The translations under genes and the position numbers were made by a program. Source: Desulfobacula sp. (lineage in GTDB: Bacteria > Desulfobacterota > Desulfobacteria > Desulfobacterales > Desulfobacteraceae). From it: a DNA stretch of 8,987 bases. This document shows positions 1,009-8,636 of the stretch, piece by piece. Every line of letters starts with the position of its first letter. The stretch's first letter is position 1. The notes beneath the pieces were generated by a model, which had not been told where the DNA came from, did no database searches, and saw only the letters and a program-made list of their open reading frames with translations. Location: contig JAOZRI010000079.1 in NCBI GenBank assembly GCA_029940235.1, positions 1 to 8,987 on the forward strand. The letters are read 5' to 3'.

Positions 1009-2115
1009 ATGACATTACTGGGACCAGAAGAGTTGTCACAACAGGTACTTGATAAAGGACTATGTACGCTTTGCGGAGCGTGTGCCAACCTTTGCCCTTA
1101 TATAAAAGCACACAACAACAAAATTATAACTCTTTTTACCTGTGACAGGACACAGGGTAGATGCTATGCCCACTGTCCCAAGGTTGGGATTCCCCTTAAA
1201 AATATATCTCAATCATATAAAGCTCAATCTTACACTGAAAATCCCATTGGTAAATTTATAAAAATAGTCAAGGCAAAAAAGGGCAGGAATGCTTCTGAAG
1301 GCAATTTCCAGAACTCTGGTGTGGTCTCATCTCTTATTATATTTGCCATGGAAAAAGAGTTGATTGATGCAGCTCTTTTAACAGGGACGCAAGGGATCAA
1401 GCCTGTACCGGTACTGGCAAGAGATAAAGATAGTGTGCTGGAATGTGCAGGGTCAAAGTATATAGCATCGCCTGTTTTGTCAATGATGGCTGAGATTAGT
1501 GATTCAGGGGTTGAAAAACTCGGGGTTGTCGGCACTCCATGTCAGATAACAGCTCTTTCCCAAATGAGGCAGAACCCTCTTGAACTTGACGATTTTAAAG
1601 ACCATACAACTCTTAGCATAGGCCTTTTCTGTACATGGGCTCTTGATAGTGAAAAATTCATTCAATATCTTTCAAAAAGAACAGATATCTCATCCATACA
1701 ATCCATGGATATCCCTCCTCCTCCTGCTGAAGAGCTGATTGTCAAGCTTGAGAATTCAGTTAAAAAATTTCCTTTACAGGAAATCAGAAAATTCAAACTT
1801 CCAGGATGTGAAATATGTGCGGATATGACATCTGAATTATCTGACATCTCTGTTGGCGCCCTTGAAGGCTTTGATGGATGGAATACCCTTATTATCAGAA
1901 GTAAAAAAGGAGAGCGGCTTGTCAATGAAGCTGTGGAACAAAACTATATTGAAATTGGCAGCTTGCCGGATAGATGCTTTGATAATTTGCTAAAAGGTGC
2001 GGGTAATAAAAAAAAACAGGCTGCACAAAAATGCAGGGAGCTTGGCATGCTGGATGATGATTTTAATAAACCTGCAAGCTTAAATGGCAGACAAACCATA
2101 ACAGGAATTGCATAA
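1009..2115 (+). CDS. FrhB/FdhB-family iron-sulfur flavoprotein (coenzyme F420 hydrogenase/dehydrogenase beta-like)
   Basis: A 368-residue protein of the FrhB/FdhB family, whose characterised members use FAD and [4Fe-4S] clusters to pass electrons to F420 or other carriers. The N-terminus has a ferredoxin motif C19-x2-C22-x2-C25-x3-C29-P and then an unusual C45-x6-C52-x3-C56-P. The family's N-terminal domain is seen in NSGVVSSLIIFAMEKELID (102-120), GSKYIASPV (148-156) and VVGTPCQITAL (173-183). The C-terminal domain shows GCEICADMTSELSDISVG (266-283) with C267 and C270. The ATG at 1009 has a GAGGGA ribosome site. Its stop is 1 nt before iorA, so it is very likely co-produced with IorAB and may be its electron partner. 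F420 use is not implied, because many bacterial members occur without F420. The acceptor is unknown. Confidence 0.85.
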   Translation: MTLLGPEELSQQVLDKGLCTLCGACANLCPYIKAHNNKIITLFTCDRTQGRCYAHCPKVGIPLKNISQSYKAQSYTENPIGKFIKIVKAKKGRNASEGNFQNSGVVSSLIIFAMEKELIDAALLTGTQGIKPVPVLARDKDSVLECAGSKYIASPVLSMMAEISDSGVEKLGVVGTPCQITALSQMRQNPLELDDFKDHTTLSIGLFCTWALDSEKFIQYLSKRTDISSIQSMDIPPPPAEELIVKLENSVKKFPLQEIRKFKLPGCEICADMTSELSDISVGALEGFDGWNTLIIRSKKGERLVNEAVEQNYIEIGSLPDRCFDNLLKGAGNKKKQAAQKCRELGMLDDDFNKPASLNGRQTITGIA

Positions 2116-2116
2116 A

Positions 2117-4021
2117 ATGGAAAAGATATCCTGCCTTATGATGGGCAACCAGGCAATTGTACGAGGAGCGATTGAGGCTGGAGTCAAGGTTGCTGCAGGT
2201 TATCCTGGAACACCATCTTCGGAAATAATAGACACACTGTCTAAAACTGCCCCTGATATCTACACGGAATGGTCTGTTAATGAAAAAGTTGCCTTAGAAG
2301 TTGCAGCGGCAGGCTCCTTTGCAGGATTAAGATCTCTTGCAGTCATGAAGCAGCCAGGCGTAAATGTTGCAGCAGATTTTCTCATGCATCTTGCTCTTTC
2401 CGGCACCAGAGCGGGAATGGTTCTTGTTGCAGCAGATGATCCCGGAGCGCTGTCCAGCATTAACGAAGGTGATACAAGACTTTATTCAAAGCTCATGGGT
2501 ATACCTCTTCTTGAACCTGGAAACTTCCAGGAAGCCTTGGAAATGACAAAATGGGCTTTTGAATTGTCTGAAAAGCTTAAAAGCCTTGTTATTTTAAGAA
2601 CAGTGACAAGGCTTTCCCATGCAAGCGGCAACGTTATAACAGGTGAGATTAAAAAAGAGGCAAAAAAAGCATACTTTGAATTCAACGGCAATATGCTTGA
2701 TCCCTTGACAGGAATTGTTACAACTATTCCTGTGAGCGTAAAACACTCTTTGCAGCATGAAAAACTACAGCAGGCTGGTGAAATTTTTGAAAGCTCTGTG
2801 TTTAATACTTATGTAGGCCCTGAAAATCCAGAGCTGCTCATAATCACAAGTTCCATCTGTAATCTCTATGCAAAAGAGGCTGTGGATGTACTGAATCTTG
2901 ACTCTAAAGTGGCCATATTAAAACTTGGTACTACTTGGCCTCTGCCTTCAAAGCTTATTCAGGCCTGCATACAAAAAACCAAACAGATTTTATTTGTGGA
3001 AGAGATACAACCCTTTGTGGAAGAGAATATCAAGGTTCTATCTGCTGGCTTTCCTGATAAATTTGGGCCAAAAGCATATTTCGGGAAACTAAGTGGTCAT
3101 ATACCCATGACAGGAGAACTCAATCCAGATCTTGTTATAAAATCTCTGGAGCAGATATTTACACTTGAACTGAGAGCATTTTCAAGTTCATATAAAAAAA
3201 AGGCAGATAAAACTCTTGAAAATTGTACGCCTGCAAGGGAGATATCTTTCTGCCCGGGCTGTCCCCACAGAGCATCATTTTTTACAATTAATAAGGTGCT
3301 TAAACTTGATAACCGCAATGGTTTTACCTGTGGAGACATTGGATGCTATTCCCTGGGTATTTTACCGGGAGGCTTTTCCACAATCAAAACCCTCCATGCC
3401 ATGGGCTCTGGGACAGGCCTTGCCAGTGGTTTTGGCAAGCTTTCACAATTTGGCATGGATCAACCAGTAATAAGTGTATGCGGAGACTCTACATTTTTTC
3501 ATTCAGGCATACCACCCCTTGTAAATGCAGTGCACAATGAGTCAAATCTTACCATGGTCATCTTAGATAACAGTGGCACTGCCATGACTGGTTTTCAACC
3601 CCATCCAGGCCTTTCAACTGGTACAGGGGGAGAACCAGCCCCTGAGGTTGATATTGAACAAGTCTGCAAAGCCATGGGTGCTGCTACCTGTATTTGTGAT
3701 CCTTTTGATCTTAAGAAGACAGAAAACATTCTGCTTGAACTTTTGAAAAAAAAAGGGGTGAATGTCCTTATTTTAAGGCAGATATGCACGCTCAGCCCTG
3801 AAAAAAAAGGTAAAAAATATTTTAATATCTTAATTGATGAACAGAAATGCAAAGGTGAGGATTGCGGGTGCAACAGAATATGTACAAGAATTTTCTCATG
3901 CCCCGGCCTTATCTGGAACAAAGAAAAAAACAAAACCATGATAAATGACATTCTCTGTACAGGGTGCGGGGTCTGCACACAGATCTGTCCTGCAGATGCA
4001 ATTAAAGCAAAGGCATGTTGA
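2117..4021 (+). CDS. iorA: Indolepyruvate ferredoxin oxidoreductase alpha subunit (IorA)
   Basis: The catalytic subunit (634 residues, normal length) of the aryl-pyruvate oxidoreductase. It decarboxylates indolepyruvate, phenylpyruvate or hydroxyphenylpyruvate with CoA and reduces ferredoxin. In order, it shows MGNQAIVRGAIEAG (9-22), GYPGTPSSEI (28-37), FCPGCPHRASFF (378-389), CGDIGCYSLG (405-414), the TPP/metal motif GDSTFFHSGI (456-465) with DNSG (484-487), and a C-terminal ferredoxin domain. The last cluster is classical (C614, C617, C620, C624-P). The preceding one is irregular: C578, C583, C585, C589, C595-P. ATG at 2117, 1 nt after the previous stop, is preferred with AGGA upstream. An in-frame TTG at 2108 would add three residues but overlaps the previous gene. 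IorB follows 1 nt after the stop. Confidence 0.95.
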   Translation: MEKISCLMMGNQAIVRGAIEAGVKVAAGYPGTPSSEIIDTLSKTAPDIYTEWSVNEKVALEVAAAGSFAGLRSLAVMKQPGVNVAADFLMHLALSGTRAGMVLVAADDPGALSSINEGDTRLYSKLMGIPLLEPGNFQEALEMTKWAFELSEKLKSLVILRTVTRLSHASGNVITGEIKKEAKKAYFEFNGNMLDPLTGIVTTIPVSVKHSLQHEKLQQAGEIFESSVFNTYVGPENPELLIITSSICNLYAKEAVDVLNLDSKVAILKLGTTWPLPSKLIQACIQKTKQILFVEEIQPFVEENIKVLSAGFPDKFGPKAYFGKLSGHIPMTGELNPDLVIKSLEQIFTLELRAFSSSYKKKADKTLENCTPAREISFCPGCPHRASFFTINKVLKLDNRNGFTCGDIGCYSLGILPGGFSTIKTLHAMGSGTGLASGFGKLSQFGMDQPVISVCGDSTFFHSGIPPLVNAVHNESNLTMVILDNSGTAMTGFQPHPGLSTGTGGEPAPEVDIEQVCKAMGAATCICDPFDLKKTENILLELLKKKGVNVLILRQICTLSPEKKGKKYFNILIDEQKCKGEDCGCNRICTRIFSCPGLIWNKEKNKTMINDILCTGCGVCTQICPADAIKAKAC

Positions 4022-4022
4022 T

Positions 4023-4646
4023 ATGATTTCAAAAAAATTAAAACATGATCCATATAATCTTATTATCACTGGCGTCGGTGGCCAGGGCAATGTTATGTCA
4101 TCCAGGATCATCGGGAATATGCTCTCTAGTTCAGGATTTTATGTGACCATTGGGGAGACATTTGGAGCATCACAAAGAGGCGGCTCTGTAATGAGCCATG
4201 TAAGAGTATCTTCAAAAAATGTTCTATCACCGCAAATACCCCTTGGCATGGCTCACATGGTAGTTTCCCTGGAGCCTGTTGAGGCCATCAGAGTATTAAG
4301 CAGTTATGGAAATCCAGATGTCAAAGTAATATGCAATACACAACCCACACATCCCATTGGAGTTATATCAGGCAGGCTTGACTATCCCAGCCAGGAAAAG
4401 ATCGAAAAATCTTTAAAGGATCTTTCATCCAGAACCTGGCTTTTTAATGCAACAAATATTGCCATGGGCATAGGAGATCCCATCTTTGCCAATATAATAA
4501 TGGCAGGTGCTCTATCTGCTGCAAAAGAACTTCCCCTGGACAAAAATAATTTTAAAACAAGCATGGAAACACAATTCAGTGCTGACAAAATCAAACAGAA
4601 CCTTATGGCTTTTGACCACGGTATCAATATGGTAAACTCTCAATAA
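4023..4646 (+). CDS. iorB: Indolepyruvate ferredoxin oxidoreductase beta subunit (IorB)
   Basis: The small subunit (207 residues) that pairs with IorA and resembles the gamma domain of POR enzymes. Family landmarks are NLIITGVGGQG (12-22) at the N-terminus, GETFGASQRGGSVMSHVR (44-61), and NATNIAMGIGDPIFANIIMAG (142-162; read as NATNIAMGIG plus DPIFANIIMAG). No iron-sulfur motif is present, as expected for this subunit. The ATG at 4023 is 1 nt after the iorA stop, with AAAGG about 10 nt upstream. An upstream in-frame open stretch back to 3945 is only the iorA 3' end read in another frame. It is the last gene of the plus-strand operon and ends 9 bp before the stop of the oppositely oriented cytochrome gene, with no visible terminator between. 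Confidence 0.95.
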   Translation: MISKKLKHDPYNLIITGVGGQGNVMSSRIIGNMLSSSGFYVTIGETFGASQRGGSVMSHVRVSSKNVLSPQIPLGMAHMVVSLEPVEAIRVLSSYGNPDVKVICNTQPTHPIGVISGRLDYPSQEKIEKSLKDLSSRTWLFNATNIAMGIGDPIFANIIMAGALSAAKELPLDKNNFKTSMETQFSADKIKQNLMAFDHGINMVNSQ

Positions 4647-4655
4647 AAAATTAAA

Positions 4656-4892
4656 CTAATACTTTGAAACCTCATCATCATGACATTTTATGCAGCCAGT
4701 GAAGCCTGGGTGTGGAGTAGCCGGCCCCTCGGCAAGATCTAAGTGATGGCATTCAAGGCATTGTTTATCTTCTGTTATATCAGCATGAATATCCGGGTGT
4801 AATTTTATGGATGCTCCATGCATCCCCATATATGCTTTATAGCTGCACCCTGAAATAATTAAAAACAGCAATATAAAAAATATCCTATTCAT
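4656..4892 (-). CDS. Small diheme c-type cytochrome lipoprotein
   Basis: A 78-residue precursor with a hydrophobic N-terminal signal (residues 3-15) ending in the lipobox IISGC, so C16 is the likely lipidated first residue of a mature protein of about 63 residues. Two covalent heme sites are visible: C45-LE-C48-H49 and C67-IK-C70-H71. Further histidines (H25, H32, H36, H50, H61) could serve as distal ligands. It would sit on the periplasmic face of the inner membrane or be sorted to the outer membrane. The start ATG lies inside the end of the ABC ATPase gene (8-nt overlap), with GGGAGG upstream, so it is translationally coupled and the last gene of the operon. It is too small for a known cytochrome family to be named with certainty. 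An electron-carrier role is inferred. Confidence 0.85.
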   Translation of the reverse strand: MNRIFFILLFLIISGCSYKAYMGMHGASIKLHPDIHADITEDKQCLECHHLDLAEGPATPHPGFTGCIKCHDDEVSKY

Positions 4893-5559
4893 TTTTTATC
4901 TGCCTCCCGTCAAGTAAATTTACTATTTTATCAGTAAATCTGATCAGTTCCTGATCATGGGTGGAAAGTATAATTGTACATTTTTCCTGCTTTGCAAGAG
5001 AGAACACTAATTCGATAAGCTTATGCCCTGTTTTAGTATCAAGATTTGCCGTGGGTTCGTCAGCAATAAGTATTTTCGGATGATGGGCAATTGCCCTTGC
5101 AAAAGCAATTCTCTGCATCTCACCTCCGGAAAGCTCGGATGGCAGTGCCGATGAAAGTTCAGGCAATCCTATCTTTTCAAGCAGATCAGCAACCCGCTCT
5201 TTTCTCTCTTTGTTACAATACATTTTATTTAGAATCAGGGGAAAAGCGATATTTTCTTCAACAGTGAGAAAGGATAAAAGATTGCCAAACTGGAATACAA
5301 ATCCCATATTTTGACGCTGGAACAAAGACAATTGTTTTTTTTTCAGGGTATGAATATTTATACCAAAACTATTAATGCTGCCTGAATCAGGGCATTCCAA
5401 TCCACCAATACAATTTAAAAGAGTAGTTTTACCTGAACCTGATTTTCCTGCAATGGCAAGGGTTGTTCCCCGGGGAATGGAAAATGATATATCACATAGG
5501 GCATTAACAACACCCCTGCCAGAAGGAAAAGTTTTTGATAAGCCTTTGATCTCTATCAT
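4885..5559 (-). CDS. ABC transporter ATP-binding protein, LolD/MacB type
   Basis: A 224-residue ATPase that powers the neighbouring FtsX-fold permease. All motifs are intact: Walker A GKSGSGKTT (38-46), Q-loop at Q90 (FQFGNLL), signature LSGGEMQR (143-150), Walker B ILIADEP (163-169) and H-loop H201 (STHD). The length and the LSGGEMQRIAFARAI stretch place it with the LolD/MacB/FtsE-like group that works by mechanotransmission or extraction rather than channel transport. The ATG at 5559 is 2 nt after the permease stop, with GAGAGGAG upstream. The exact cargo cannot be read from the ATPase. LolD itself is a possible name, but the operon partners (isoprenoid synthase, methyltransferase, cytochrome) are not those of a lipoprotein-sorting locus. 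Confidence 0.92.
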   Translation of the reverse strand: MIEIKGLSKTFPSGRGVVNALCDISFSIPRGTTLAIAGKSGSGKTTLLNCIGGLECPDSGSINSFGINIHTLKKKQLSLFQRQNMGFVFQFGNLLSFLTVEENIAFPLILNKMYCNKERKERVADLLEKIGLPELSSALPSELSGGEMQRIAFARAIAHHPKILIADEPTANLDTKTGHKLIELVFSLAKQEKCTIILSTHDQELIRFTDKIVNLLDGRQIKNE

Positions 5560-5561
5560 CC

Positions 5562-6749
5562 TTATCCATCTCCTCTCAAAATTTCAGCAGCGTTTTTCCT
5601 TGAAATCATTATTGCAGGCCATATTGCTGCCGGAAGACTAAACACCAGAGCTGAAAGAGGTGGCAACAAGAGGGAATAAGCCGTAAGCCTGGGAAAAATA
5701 ACTCCTGATACAATAAAATATTGATTATGCGATGTCCAGGCAGTGAGGTCAATACCGGTTTTTTGAAAAACAGACACAATAATAATTCCAAAAATTACTC
5801 CAAAAATTGATGCCGCAATATTGATCAAAAAGACCTCCCAGCAAAGCAGGGAAACAGTTTGGATTGAAGTTACTCCCATAACTTTCATAATACCGTATTC
5901 ACGAATACTTTTTAATATAAAAATAGAAAAAGCAGAAGTAATGCCAAGGGAAACAATTATAAAAACAATTACAATCACAATACTCATGGAAAAATAATTC
6001 AGGGATATCAATTGTTCAAGATCGGGCATTAATTGCTTCCAGGTTTGAAAATTAACATGATCCGGGATTTTATTCTGAAATTTCTGTAATACCATGTCCA
6101 TATCAACACCATCATTGAGGAATACAGCACCATTCCAGAAATATTTATGCTTTCCTGCATAATTTTCCATTGTGCCATGTTTTATTGTTTCAATGTCACA
6201 AAAGGCAATGCCTGTATCAAGCTGGCTTATTCCGGTTTTATAGATGCCTGCAACCAGAAATTGACTCTCTTTAAACCCGGGTTCCAGGCTGAAGCTGATA
6301 AGATCATTGCACTTGGCACCCAATCTTTTTGCGACTGGCTCACTTATAAATATCTCTATGGAGCCTTTTTTAATAAATCGTCCTTTTATGGTTTTTTTCC
6401 AGAAGGCAGATGTTTTTCTCTCCTGATCCGGCTCAACACCAACCAATACTATTTGATCTATTTGATCTTTAAAGTGCAGAAATCCGATAACCTCAACACG
6501 CTGCAGCACATTGGCCACTCCTTTTACTGCAAGATCGGTTTTTTGGATATTGTCAGGAATATTATAACCTGAGATGTGTCCTGAAAAAAGCCCCACAGAA
6601 TTGCGTATCATTGCATCATTCACACCCATTGCAAGAGATGATAAAAATATAAGGCAGGAGACAGCACTTATTACCATCAGGGTCAATATAATTGAAGTAC
6701 GACTTGAACGAACCAGAAAAAGAGCAGCAGTTTTTATCCAGAACAGCAT
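5562..6749 (-). CDS. ABC transporter permease, FtsX/LolC-E/MacB fold
   Basis: A 395-residue inner-membrane permease. The first membrane helix spans about 19-42, and a periplasmic domain of about 210 residues follows (43-251, MacB-core-like). Three more helices lie at about 252-279, 302-328 and 355-383. The FtsX-type cytoplasmic loop SIREYGIMKVMGVTSIQ (281-297) and the C-terminal SRKNAAEILRGDG ending are typical. Length and topology match LolC/LolE. The start ATG at 6749 has AAAGGG about 8 nt upstream, and it lies 10 nt after the isoprenoid synthase stop. Only one permease gene is present, so it should act as a homodimer with the ATPase encoded next. No MacA-like adaptor or outer-membrane channel is in the window. 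The cargo is inferred to be a lipid, isoprenoid or lipoprotein. Confidence 0.88.
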   Translation of the reverse strand: MLFWIKTAALFLVRSSRTSIILTLMVISAVSCLIFLSSLAMGVNDAMIRNSVGLFSGHISGYNIPDNIQKTDLAVKGVANVLQRVEVIGFLHFKDQIDQIVLVGVEPDQERKTSAFWKKTIKGRFIKKGSIEIFISEPVAKRLGAKCNDLISFSLEPGFKESQFLVAGIYKTGISQLDTGIAFCDIETIKHGTMENYAGKHKYFWNGAVFLNDGVDMDMVLQKFQNKIPDHVNFQTWKQLMPDLEQLISLNYFSMSIVIVIVFIIVSLGITSAFSIFILKSIREYGIMKVMGVTSIQTVSLLCWEVFLINIAASIFGVIFGIIIVSVFQKTGIDLTAWTSHNQYFIVSGVIFPRLTAYSLLLPPLSALVFSLPAAIWPAIMISRKNAAEILRGDG

Positions 6750-6759
6750 AAAATACCCT

Positions 6760-7818
6760 TTATATCCTAATGTCAGACAAAAATATGTCAGTACCTATTC
6801 TTTTTGAAATCATCGAGATTGAAGCATCCACCATAAACTGATGATCTAAAGCAAAAAGGTTTTTTGCACCTTTTTTTAATAAAACAAGGGCTTTTAAAGC
6901 TGCTGTTTTGCAAGCTGCGGGAAATTGAAAAAGGAGATCTTCTGAGATCTTAATATTACTCCTGTCTTTCAATATTTTTTCAAGCAATAGTGTCTCACTC
7001 TCTTTTTCGCCATATTGAATCAGGGAAGCCACATAATTATGACGATCCATTTTCATATCAAGGGAAAGATCAACCATGTCATCAAATATCTGGCATCCCA
7101 TTCCAATATCAAACAGAGCATCCTTAATAACCATACTACTCTGCATAGTTCCAAAATCAGTTATTTTCTTATCTCTGGTATTCAAATCTTCCAGCATATC
7201 AGGCAGAGCCCAGGGTGATTGGAATAAAATTCCGGTTTTCAAAGAGTGAATATCAGAGAGTATATAATCAGGATTTAAGATCCCACCGGCACCTTGCTCT
7301 TCCGATGCTTCCTGGGCTCCGCTTTTTGCCAAGGTTCTTAAAGATTCAAAAGCTGCTGCCATTACCTGGTCTGATGATAATTTACCCGAAAGAAACTCCT
7401 GCTGGAGAAGTGAAAACAATACTCTATCTGAAACCATTATATCTACTATTGAACGAAATTTGCCTGCCTTTAACGGCAGGTCTGTTGCAAGTGTCATTTT
7501 GTATTCATTATCCAGAATATTATCACATCCTGTAACCATGCCCCTGAGGCACTGATTCACAGCAACATAAAAAATTCGTCTTGAAGCAGGTATTCCGGCT
7601 CTGAAGTACGAATAAAGAAATATGGATGAAAAAAAATTTTTCTCCATGGAATAATAATCATTGGTTGCGTCAAGAACCTTGATTGAACTTTTATCAAGAA
7701 TTTGAGTTGCAGTATCCCAATAAAGTTTCAGGCCGGATTGCATCTCTTCCTGCAAAGTATTGAATATAGCCTGAATTTTCCTATCCTTATTATTTGATAC
7801 CGTTTTAAGGGCTGCCAT
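6760..7818 (-). CDS. Divergent class I isoprenoid synthase (polyprenyl synthetase-like)
   Basis: A 352-residue, mostly helical protein with the layout of trans-isoprenyl diphosphate synthases. The second aspartate-rich motif is clear: F245-D246-D247-M-V-D250 in GCQIFDDMVDLSLDM. The mid-protein KTG (194-196, in HSLKTGILFQ) matches the family's substrate-binding lysine region. The first aspartate motif is changed: D99-N100-I-L-D103-N104-E105 instead of DDxxD, and the usual downstream RR pair is replaced by EYK. No clear GGKxxRP motif is present. It may act on an allylic diphosphate as a prenyltransferase or terpene-type cyclase, or it may have lost synthase activity. The ATG at 7818 follows AGGAG by 6 nt. 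It lies 75 bp after the methyltransferase and 10 bp before the permease. The product is unknown. Confidence 0.75.
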   Translation of the reverse strand: MAALKTVSNNKDRKIQAIFNTLQEEMQSGLKLYWDTATQILDKSSIKVLDATNDYYSMEKNFFSSIFLYSYFRAGIPASRRIFYVAVNQCLRGMVTGCDNILDNEYKMTLATDLPLKAGKFRSIVDIMVSDRVLFSLLQQEFLSGKLSSDQVMAAAFESLRTLAKSGAQEASEEQGAGGILNPDYILSDIHSLKTGILFQSPWALPDMLEDLNTRDKKITDFGTMQSSMVIKDALFDIGMGCQIFDDMVDLSLDMKMDRHNYVASLIQYGEKESETLLLEKILKDRSNIKISEDLLFQFPAACKTAALKALVLLKKGAKNLFALDHQFMVDASISMISKRIGTDIFLSDIRI

Positions 7819-7893
7819 TCATAACTCCTGATCTGCCATATGATTTAATTTGTGCATAGCACGGAAAGGTCATTGAACAACAATAGCACCTTT

Positions 7894-8559
7894 TCATGGC
7901 CTGGATATTGGTTTAGTAGTGGTAAAAATTGAAATATATCCGAAATATGTACAAACTATTTTAGGTTTTTCAAAACCAGCCTCTTCTATCAGTGATGGCA
8001 AAACACCTCTTATATTTTCTCCTATCTGGGGCTGAAAAAGGATCCAGCGTGAAACATGGGAAATTAGCCAGCCAAAAAATGTGGTAGGAATATGCATATC
8101 TGAAATCACCATTTTTCCTCCGGGTTTCAGCACTCTGAACGCTTCTGCAAAAGCCTTCTCTTTTAAATCAAGCTGAATATGATGAAAAAACAGTGTGGAA
8201 AGGATAGAATCAAAGGAGTTATCCTCAAACTTAAGATCTTCTGCAGCAGCCACTTCAAACTTGCATCTACGGCTCTCTCTCTTTTTTCTGGCACCCTGTA
8301 TCATTTTTCCGGCAGCATCAATCCCGGTTACAAATCCACCTTTTTCAGAATTTAGAGCTGTTGAAACAACCTGAGTAATAACTCCTGTTCCGCAGCCGAT
8401 ATCTAAAATTCTGTGGAAGTCTTGAATATCTAAAAGACTGATAAGCTGCTCATTTATTTCACCTTCTCTGCCAAACATTAACATTGGTTCAAATATATCG
8501 TAAATGCCAGCAGCATAATCAAGAGTCCGGCCCCTTGTTGGAACAGATTTTAAATCCAT
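7894..8559 (-). CDS. Class I SAM-dependent methyltransferase, UbiE/COQ5-like
   Basis: A 221-residue Rossmann-fold methyltransferase. Motif I LDIGCGTG is at residues 52-59, and an acidic residue in GIDAAGKM follows for SAM ribose binding. AAAEDLKFEDNSFDSILS and LKPGGKMVISDMHIP are the typical UbiE-like motifs II and III. The C-terminal part (FFGWLISHVSRWILF) is hydrophobic, suiting a lipid or isoprenoid substrate at the membrane. ATG at 8559 is chosen because GAGGGA lies just upstream. An in-frame GTG at 8583 would add eight residues that contain the ribosome site itself. It is the first gene of the five-gene operon, about 40 nt below a strong promoter. Quinone methylation is possible, but the operon contains no other quinone genes, so the substrate is more likely the product of the next gene. 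Confidence 0.85.
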   Translation of the reverse strand: MDLKSVPTRGRTLDYAAGIYDIFEPMLMFGREGEINEQLISLLDIQDFHRILDIGCGTGVITQVVSTALNSEKGGFVTGIDAAGKMIQGARKKRESRRCKFEVAAAEDLKFEDNSFDSILSTLFFHHIQLDLKEKAFAEAFRVLKPGGKMVISDMHIPTTFFGWLISHVSRWILFQPQIGENIRGVLPSLIEEAGFEKPKIVCTYFGYISIFTTTKPISRP

Positions 8560-8605
8560 TTTTCCCTCTTTTTTCAAAAGCACACCAACTAAATTTGCCT
8601 GTCTG

Positions 8606-8636
8606 ATTATATATTGTCTTTGTCTGGCTGTGTCAA
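8606..8636 (-). promoter_or_regulatory. Near-consensus sigma70 promoter of the methyltransferase/isoprenoid/ABC operon
   Basis: On the minus strand a perfect -35 TTGACA (8636-8631) is followed after 17 bp by TATATA (8613-8608), which overlaps a perfect TATAAT (8611-8606) at 19-bp spacing. Transcription should start near 8600, giving a leader of about 40 nt to the ATG at 8559. The word ATCAGACAGGCA (8607-8596) overlaps the start site and also occurs upstream of the iorAB operon. Confidence 0.7.

Follow-up and report, generated by a model that had tools for sequence, protein, structure and literature searches.

A patchily distributed gene cassette of Desulfobacterota linking a methyltransferase and a predicted prenyl-synthase-fold enzyme to an ABC transporter

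Introduction

In bacterial methyltransferase–terpene synthase pairs, such as those for 2-methylisoborneol, sodorifen, and other homoterpenes, a methyltransferase gene adjoins that of a class I isoprenoid enzyme (PMC10881772, PMC12723460). We analyzed an 8987-nucleotide stretch of Desulfobacula sp. DNA (assembly GCA_029940235.1, contig JAOZRI010000079.1; hereafter, the window), in which a methyltransferase gene (MT) likewise adjoins a gene for a divergent enzyme with a predicted prenyl-synthase fold (SYN), followed by genes encoding a permease (PERM), an ATPase, and a predicted diheme lipoprotein (CYT). Unlike the pairs described in those sources, this locus combines a prenyl-synthase-type enzyme with a dedicated transporter of LolC/E fold, and any kinship of MT to geranyl or farnesyl diphosphate (GPP/FPP) methyltransferases would be conjectural. 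The genes are a conserved, patchily distributed cassette with four core members, CYT being optional.

SYN differs from the trans-isoprenyl diphosphate synthases (IDS; PF00348), which comprise the FPP, geranylgeranyl diphosphate (GGPP), and polyprenyl synthases, by the lack of the GGKxxRP and RRG motifs, a modified first motif (DNxLDxE), an altered region after the second motif, and the lack of a PF00348 match. The IDS-like terpene synthases of fungi (ILTPS) and insects are prenyl-synthase relatives without the arginine that binds isopentenyl diphosphate (IPP), in which the second aspartate motif can be kept (PMC7484799). SYN resembles them in these respects, but it is bacterial and far more diverged, its gene is accompanied by those of a methyltransferase and an ABC transporter, and its activity is predicted. 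Its fold also recalls the trans-IDS-like prenyltransferases Ord1, ComQ, and PalQ (PMC13290415), and an acceptor other than IPP would fit its missing motifs.

The transporter resembles the lipoprotein transporters LolCDE and LolDF in permease fold and ATPase type, and has a single permease gene as in LolDF. It differs from both in that the pair scores under the curated cut-offs, PERM forms a separate clade, its Hook loop is shortened, and a housekeeping copy is found elsewhere. Unlike MacB-type (type VII) ABC transporters, its ATPase is on a separate chain, and no MacA or TolC partner genes recur. All parts of the cassette belong to known superfamilies; the gene set is not described in the open-licence literature that we searched.

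Conservation of the Cassette

All five genes lie on the minus strand, from 8583 down to 4656 in the list of open reading frames (ORFs). MT and SYN are 75 bp apart, and the coordinates agree with the last three junctions reported in the initial annotation, namely 10 bp between SYN and PERM, 2 bp between PERM and ATPase, and an 8-nt overlap of ATPase and CYT.

SYN was found in 18 of 193 related genomes, including 4 of the 26 of its own genus (its own genome, G003, G004, and G014), and its distribution is thus patchy. The near loci were the window and 17 others, to which a scan of genome contigs for SYN added a single locus, L021, from a Desulfomicrobium metagenome-assembled genome (MAG). An all-versus-all comparison of neighbors returned five recurrent families that are exactly the five genes, the next family occurring at 4 of the 19 loci. 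By tblastn, SYN is accompanied in the 18 genomes by MT (15), PERM (14), ATPase (14), and CYT (13); the four core genes are complete in 12 genomes and all five genes in 11, and L021 also has the four core genes. The other loci include MT–SYN only (L033, in G033), partial MT and SYN genes without PERM (L029, in G004), and an MT remnant with SYN in pieces next to intact PERM, ATPase, and CYT (L038, in G069). At L027 (G119), SYN stands with a PEMT-like gene, and MT and PERM are not nearby, while L037 and L025 are incomplete at contig ends. L038 and L029 are possibly decaying copies or the result of assembly errors. Identity to the window copy at the near loci is 56–82% for MT and mostly 43–72% for SYN, with one fragment at 68% and broken copies at 36–42%.

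Reverse searches of the 193 genomes gave a similar picture. PERM relatives scored at least 280 bits in 15 genomes, after which none exceeded 111.6 bits, and SYN is the neighbor in 14 of the 15; in the exception (G040), which has no SYN match, the contig starts inside PERM. For MT, with 15 first-look candidates scored in many genomes, matches at E ≤ 1e-40 were found in 15 genomes, 14 of them beside SYN. In the exception (G131), MT is on a second contig, 103 bp from its start and directed outward, and the SYN contig of the same genome ends at most 270 bp upstream of SYN. The recurrent neighbors and these two reverse searches bear out the proposal that the genes form an operon-like unit and are conserved as a group, a point on which it had been made to depend.

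We also examined a draw of 395 genomes from the phylum Desulfobacterota. SYN reached at least 100 bits in 17 genomes besides its own and at most 41 bits in G547; matches of 19–25 bits in 13 further genomes are probably ordinary prenyl synthases. Nearby and on the same strand as SYN in the 17 far genomes were PERM (13), MT (12), ATPase (10), and CYT (3), with G500 represented by two contigs that share an end overlap of 392 bp (98.7%). At L083, PERM and ATPase adjoin SYN on the opposite strand, L082 ends with a piece of ATPase, L084 and L085 have neither PERM nor ATPase, and L069 has PERM and ATPase without MT. The order is SYN–MT–PERM–ATPase in L076 and L077, with a PEMT/ICMT-like gene before SYN. 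Across L076–L083, SYN is 34–38% and MT, where present, 40–47% identical to the near relatives. In three far genomes searched, the cassette MT scored 164–171 bits versus 46 bits for the best other methyltransferase, which reached 54.5 bits in two near genomes searched. These scores and identities indicate that MT and SYN are an old pair. Going by the names given in the sources, homologues of the far type belong to Geothermobacter, Desulfuromonas, and Desulfobulbaceae, and some to MAGs labelled as Nitrospirae and Halobacteriota.

The existence of broken and partial copies would suit a neighborhood kept by chance or by general operon conservation, with no common pathway. The linkage itself speaks against this, since 14 of 15 MT and 14 of 15 PERM relatives are beside SYN and the association survives a different gene order in L076 and L077, and we regard this explanation as highly improbable.

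SYN Lacks the IPP-Binding Motifs of Prenyl Synthases

SYN (6760..7818, minus strand, 352 aa) matched no Pfam or NCBIfam model, PF00348 included. Its homologues, one of them from the cultured Desulfospira joergensenii, include some that carry PF00348, and its predicted fold is that of a prenyl synthase; as SYN itself has no family match, the label of isoprenoid synthase is based on these homologues and on the predicted fold. Its two aspartate-rich motifs read DNILDNEYK and CQIFDDMVD. The first is of the form DNxLDxE and not DDxxD or DDxxxxD, with D99, N100, D103, and E105 invariant in 54 rows, and the second is a DDxxD motif with D246, D247, and D250 invariant. Beside these invariant metal-type motifs, the IPP-binding GGKxxRP and RRG are missing, with KNFFS-like and K-x-T sequences in their place in the aligned rows, and the region following the second motif differs from that of the comparison prenyl synthases. 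The lack of motifs used for IPP coupling argues against the earlier suggestion that the synthase joins isoprenoid diphosphates. SYN may instead be an IDS-like terpene synthase, which would form a terpene from a single prenyl diphosphate with no coupling step.

In prenyl synthases, the stretch before the first metal motif is usually where the hydrophobic tunnel for the chain lies. Just ahead of this motif, SYN has the invariant polar residues N88, Q89, and R92 (window 7552–7563, in the region of residues 86–97), possibly a sign that its substrate is short or polar.

The missing motifs would also suit an Ord1/ComQ-like prenyltransferase that attaches a prenyl group to an amino acid, a peptide, or a small metabolite, the adduct then being methylated by MT and exported. 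However, the Ord1 score (18.7) is below that of polyprenyl synthases, and, among ORFs of at least 60 aa, the recurrent neighbors of SYN include no gene that is peptide-like or would otherwise supply an acceptor; this alternative thus appears rather unlikely. A location of SYN within hopanoid or other terpene clusters was also considered and rejected: the long genes next to the distant SYN of L084 resemble phosphoenolpyruvate (PEP)-phosphotransferase, HSP90, and peptide-ABC genes, as read without a domain search.

MT Is Not a Recognized Quinone Methyltransferase

According to the ORF list and the Pfam and NCBIfam searches, MT (7894..8583, minus strand, 229 aa) is a class I S-adenosylmethionine (SAM)-dependent methyltransferase. 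It starts with a GTG at 8583, an in-frame ATG at 8559 also being possible. MT matches methyltransferase Pfam families, best PF08241 (4.4e-24), and sits in the Methyltransf_11/UbiE neighborhood. It scored 78.9 bits against the UbiE/MenG quinone methyltransferase model, whose cut-off is 158.35, and the UbiE-like quinone methylation proposed initially is therefore unsupported. MT was also under the cut-off of each of the best 25 of the 74 NCBIfam models that it matched. GPP methyltransferase chains were not recognized among the best 60 of 70 PDB rows for MT, which excludes nothing.

These data bear on a modified quinone pathway with an exporter, in which SYN, though divergent, would elongate chains as a polyprenyl diphosphate synthase and MT would methylate quinones. 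The fold of SYN, the UbiE neighborhood of MT, and the redox nature predicted for CYT are compatible with it, but the IPP-site motifs are missing from SYN, MT is under the UbiE cut-off, and no quinone gene recurs beside the cassette (quinone genes elsewhere in the genomes were not searched). We consider such a pathway improbable.

A gene for a PEMT/ICMT-like membrane methyltransferase was observed beside or near SYN in five loci (L027:1755–2369, L076:10808–11326, L077:10300–10812, L078:10685–11293, and L081:1690–2256). A domain search on three of them, those of L027, L076, and L081, confirmed PF04191. This gene may encode an alternative or additional tailoring enzyme.

The Transporter Is Distinct from the Housekeeping Lol System

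PERM (5562..6749, minus strand, 395 aa) matches Pfam FtsX (9.3e-11) and is predicted to have a MacB/LolC-type fold, and the ATPase (4885..5559, minus strand, 224 aa), of the LolD/DevA/FtsE type, matches ABC_tran (3.3e-34). Against the lolCE equivalog, PERM scored 80.5 bits for a cut-off of 362.45, and all 12 of 12 cassette permeases were below this cut-off. The ATPase missed the cut-offs of both LolD (199.9 bits, cut-off 307.75) and DevA (198.2 bits, cut-off 295.8). The LolC/D-like transporter of the initial annotation thus stands as regards the Lol-like fold, whereas the curated LolC/E and LolD assignments are not reached. In the sequence alignment, the Hook loop of PERM is 9 residues shorter than that of LolC and 8 shorter than that of LolF; the Hook, which recruits LolA, is described as essential in E. 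coli (PMC10865981).

The possibility that PERM is the housekeeping Lol permease was rejected. The PERM tree included adjacent FtsX pairs from L091–L095, which are not LolC/E by cut-off, and true LolC/E rows; PERM separates from the latter, and a separate LolC/E is present in the carriers tested. The ABC pair therefore stands apart from the housekeeping Lol permeases, a point on which the earlier proposal had been made to depend.

The loci L091–L095 belong to five genomes with an adjacent pair of FtsX-type permeases, about 20–26% identical to PERM and distinct from LolC/E, with an ATPase gene nearby in four of the five. The sole member scanned, from L091, scored 110 bits, below the LolC/E cut-off. 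Four rows labelled LolD in the ATPase tree come from these loci and are thus not housekeeping LolD. The ATPases of three far cassettes (L076, L077, and L083) group with those of the FtsX-pair transporter and not with the near-cassette ATPases (97/92). The approximately unbiased (AU) test gave p 0.0448 for a single ATPase clade, in a comparison that omitted L088 and used a group defined once the tree was known, while a single PERM clade was not rejected (p 0.529 and 0.541). From the trees, the far clade might have recruited its transporter independently. The ATPase grouping is possibly the result of a transporter swap that is not mirrored by the permeases.

MacB relatives have roles in resistance and in the sensing of antibiotics (PMC5985334), and the transporter might accordingly guard the producer against its own terpenoid. 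However, genes for an adaptor, an outer-membrane channel, or a sensor show no specific recurrence; one promiscuous family of the wider set, which has 25 members, occurs at 15 of 39 loci, and the one member examined resembles a response regulator. A resistance or sensing role thus seems very unlikely.

CYT Is an Accessory Member

CYT (4656..4892, minus strand, 78 aa) is short and was below every Pfam cut-off listed, and no PDB match was better than E 0.31. A lipobox-type GC is found in 16 of 16 aligned rows and both CXXCH motifs in 14 of 16, window included, with further conserved histidines. CYT would thus qualify as a c-type cytochrome lipoprotein by its lipobox cysteine and two CXXCH motifs, heme binding being predicted. 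In the copies at L031 and L035, the sequence is broken beyond the first heme motif.

Among the 193 genomes, CYT scored at least 58 bits in 14, 13 of them in the cassette, and two more genomes gave only 24 bits or less. No CYT match was obtained anywhere in the genome of G003, the closest relative (97% complete), and CYT is absent from most far loci, which makes it an accessory. The five-gene unit first described therefore holds for the four-gene core, CYT being present at only 13 of 18 near and 3 of 17 far loci. In G001, the one of the 14 genomes with CYT outside the cassette, there is no SYN match, and a close CYT relative was observed at L089:9838–10038 (G001:C67:25838–26038), 146 bp from the contig end and with no recognizable ATPase end before it.

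The LolC/E fold and the lipoprotein nature of CYT, whose gene overlaps that of the ATPase by 8 nt, could point to a Lol paralogue devoted to lipoproteins like CYT, with MT–SYN a mere neighbor. Yet the transporter is kept without CYT in G003, G040, L021, L069, L071, L072, L073, and the far clade, the Hook loop is shortened, the carriers tested have a separate LolC/E, and MT–SYN and PERM are still linked in far families. A Lol paralogue is, in our opinion, quite improbable.

Promoter and Neighboring Genes

A promoter-like site with two perfect hexamers, TTGACA-N19-TATAAT, is located at 8606..8636 on the minus strand, 22 nt 5′ of the MT GTG. It occurs once in the window versus 0.03 expected (6 of 200 shuffles), which is unlikely by chance and is in line with the earlier claim of one strong promoter ahead of five same-strand genes. 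A standard scan listed 31 sites versus 27.8 expected and missed this one, because its 19-nt spacer is outside the scanned range of 16–18. In 15 relatives, the best sites within 200 bp upstream of MT matched only 7–10 of 12 positions (without shuffle control), and the promoter of the window is thus not conserved as such.

The window is one entire contig (C606) of an assembly of 615 contigs with an estimated completeness of 78.7%, and Desulfobacula and Desulfobacteraceae MAG proteins are the closest named relatives of its proteins. The cassette faces a second, convergent gene group. On the plus strand (1009–4646), the gene for an FrhB-like F420 hydrogenase/dehydrogenase beta protein precedes genes resembling those for the alpha and beta parts of indolepyruvate ferredoxin oxidoreductase. 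On the minus strand (2–563) are two 93-aa genes, one cut by the contig end, which appear to resemble a ferredoxin and the start of a 2-oxoacid oxidoreductase.

Discussion

The core genes recur together across distant Desulfobacterota families, which suggests that they make, methylate, and export an isoprenoid; that this isoprenoid is not elongated is the reading that we tentatively favor. SYN would ionize one prenyl diphosphate without adding IPP, in a terpene synthase-like manner, and MT would methylate its substrate or product. PERM and the ATPase would then extract the product from the inner membrane, as a predicted assembly of a permease homodimer and two ATPases that would operate by mechanotransmission and have no LolA Hook. 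In the carriers that have it, CYT could exchange electrons with the product after export. We infer the chain length, the fate of the SYN intermediate (cyclization, water quench, or another acceptor), the site of methylation, and the isoprenoid nature of the cargo, as we do the overall scheme of a molecule that is built, methylated, and moved.

Several observations weigh against this proposal. SYN is found without PERM in G033, G119, and G004, without MT in G119 and at L069, and with neither at L084 and L085. An incomplete or interrupted SYN frame was seen in 5 of the 18 near genomes (G004, G044, G069, G150, and G156) and an interrupted one in 2 of 17 far genomes (G322 and G504), so that some copies are decaying or misassembled; in addition, the SYN of the near genome G104 is cut by a contig end. 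No curated isoprenoid methyltransferase was over its cut-off among the best 25 of 74 matches of MT. The six comparison prenyl synthases were chosen by a script demanding the GGK..RP and DDxxD motifs, and thus define what is canonical without providing an independent test. The site of action of MacB-type transporters is periplasmic (PMC5985334), and the product would therefore first have to reach the outer leaflet. Product, substrate, and transport are all predictions from sequence.

A more specific scenario, which we consider improbable, is that SYN and MT make a lipid without IPP addition, that the Hook-less Lol-fold transporter lifts it from the inner membrane for the outer envelope, and that the dedicated diheme lipoprotein of many carriers uses it as a membrane-shuttling redox carrier.

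The interest of the cassette lies in the coupling of a prenyl-synthase relative without an IPP site to a Lol-fold exporter, with enzymes that can be tested by single-step assays. If our proposal of a methylated and exported isoprenoid is true, the cassette would be a compact pathway for a new class of isoprenoids in anaerobic Desulfobacterota, and, speculatively, could explain methylated isoprenoids of anoxic settings. It would also show that an ABC transporter with the fold used for lipoprotein sorting can serve a biosynthetic product, and offer a case of cargo change in the MacB/Lol fold.

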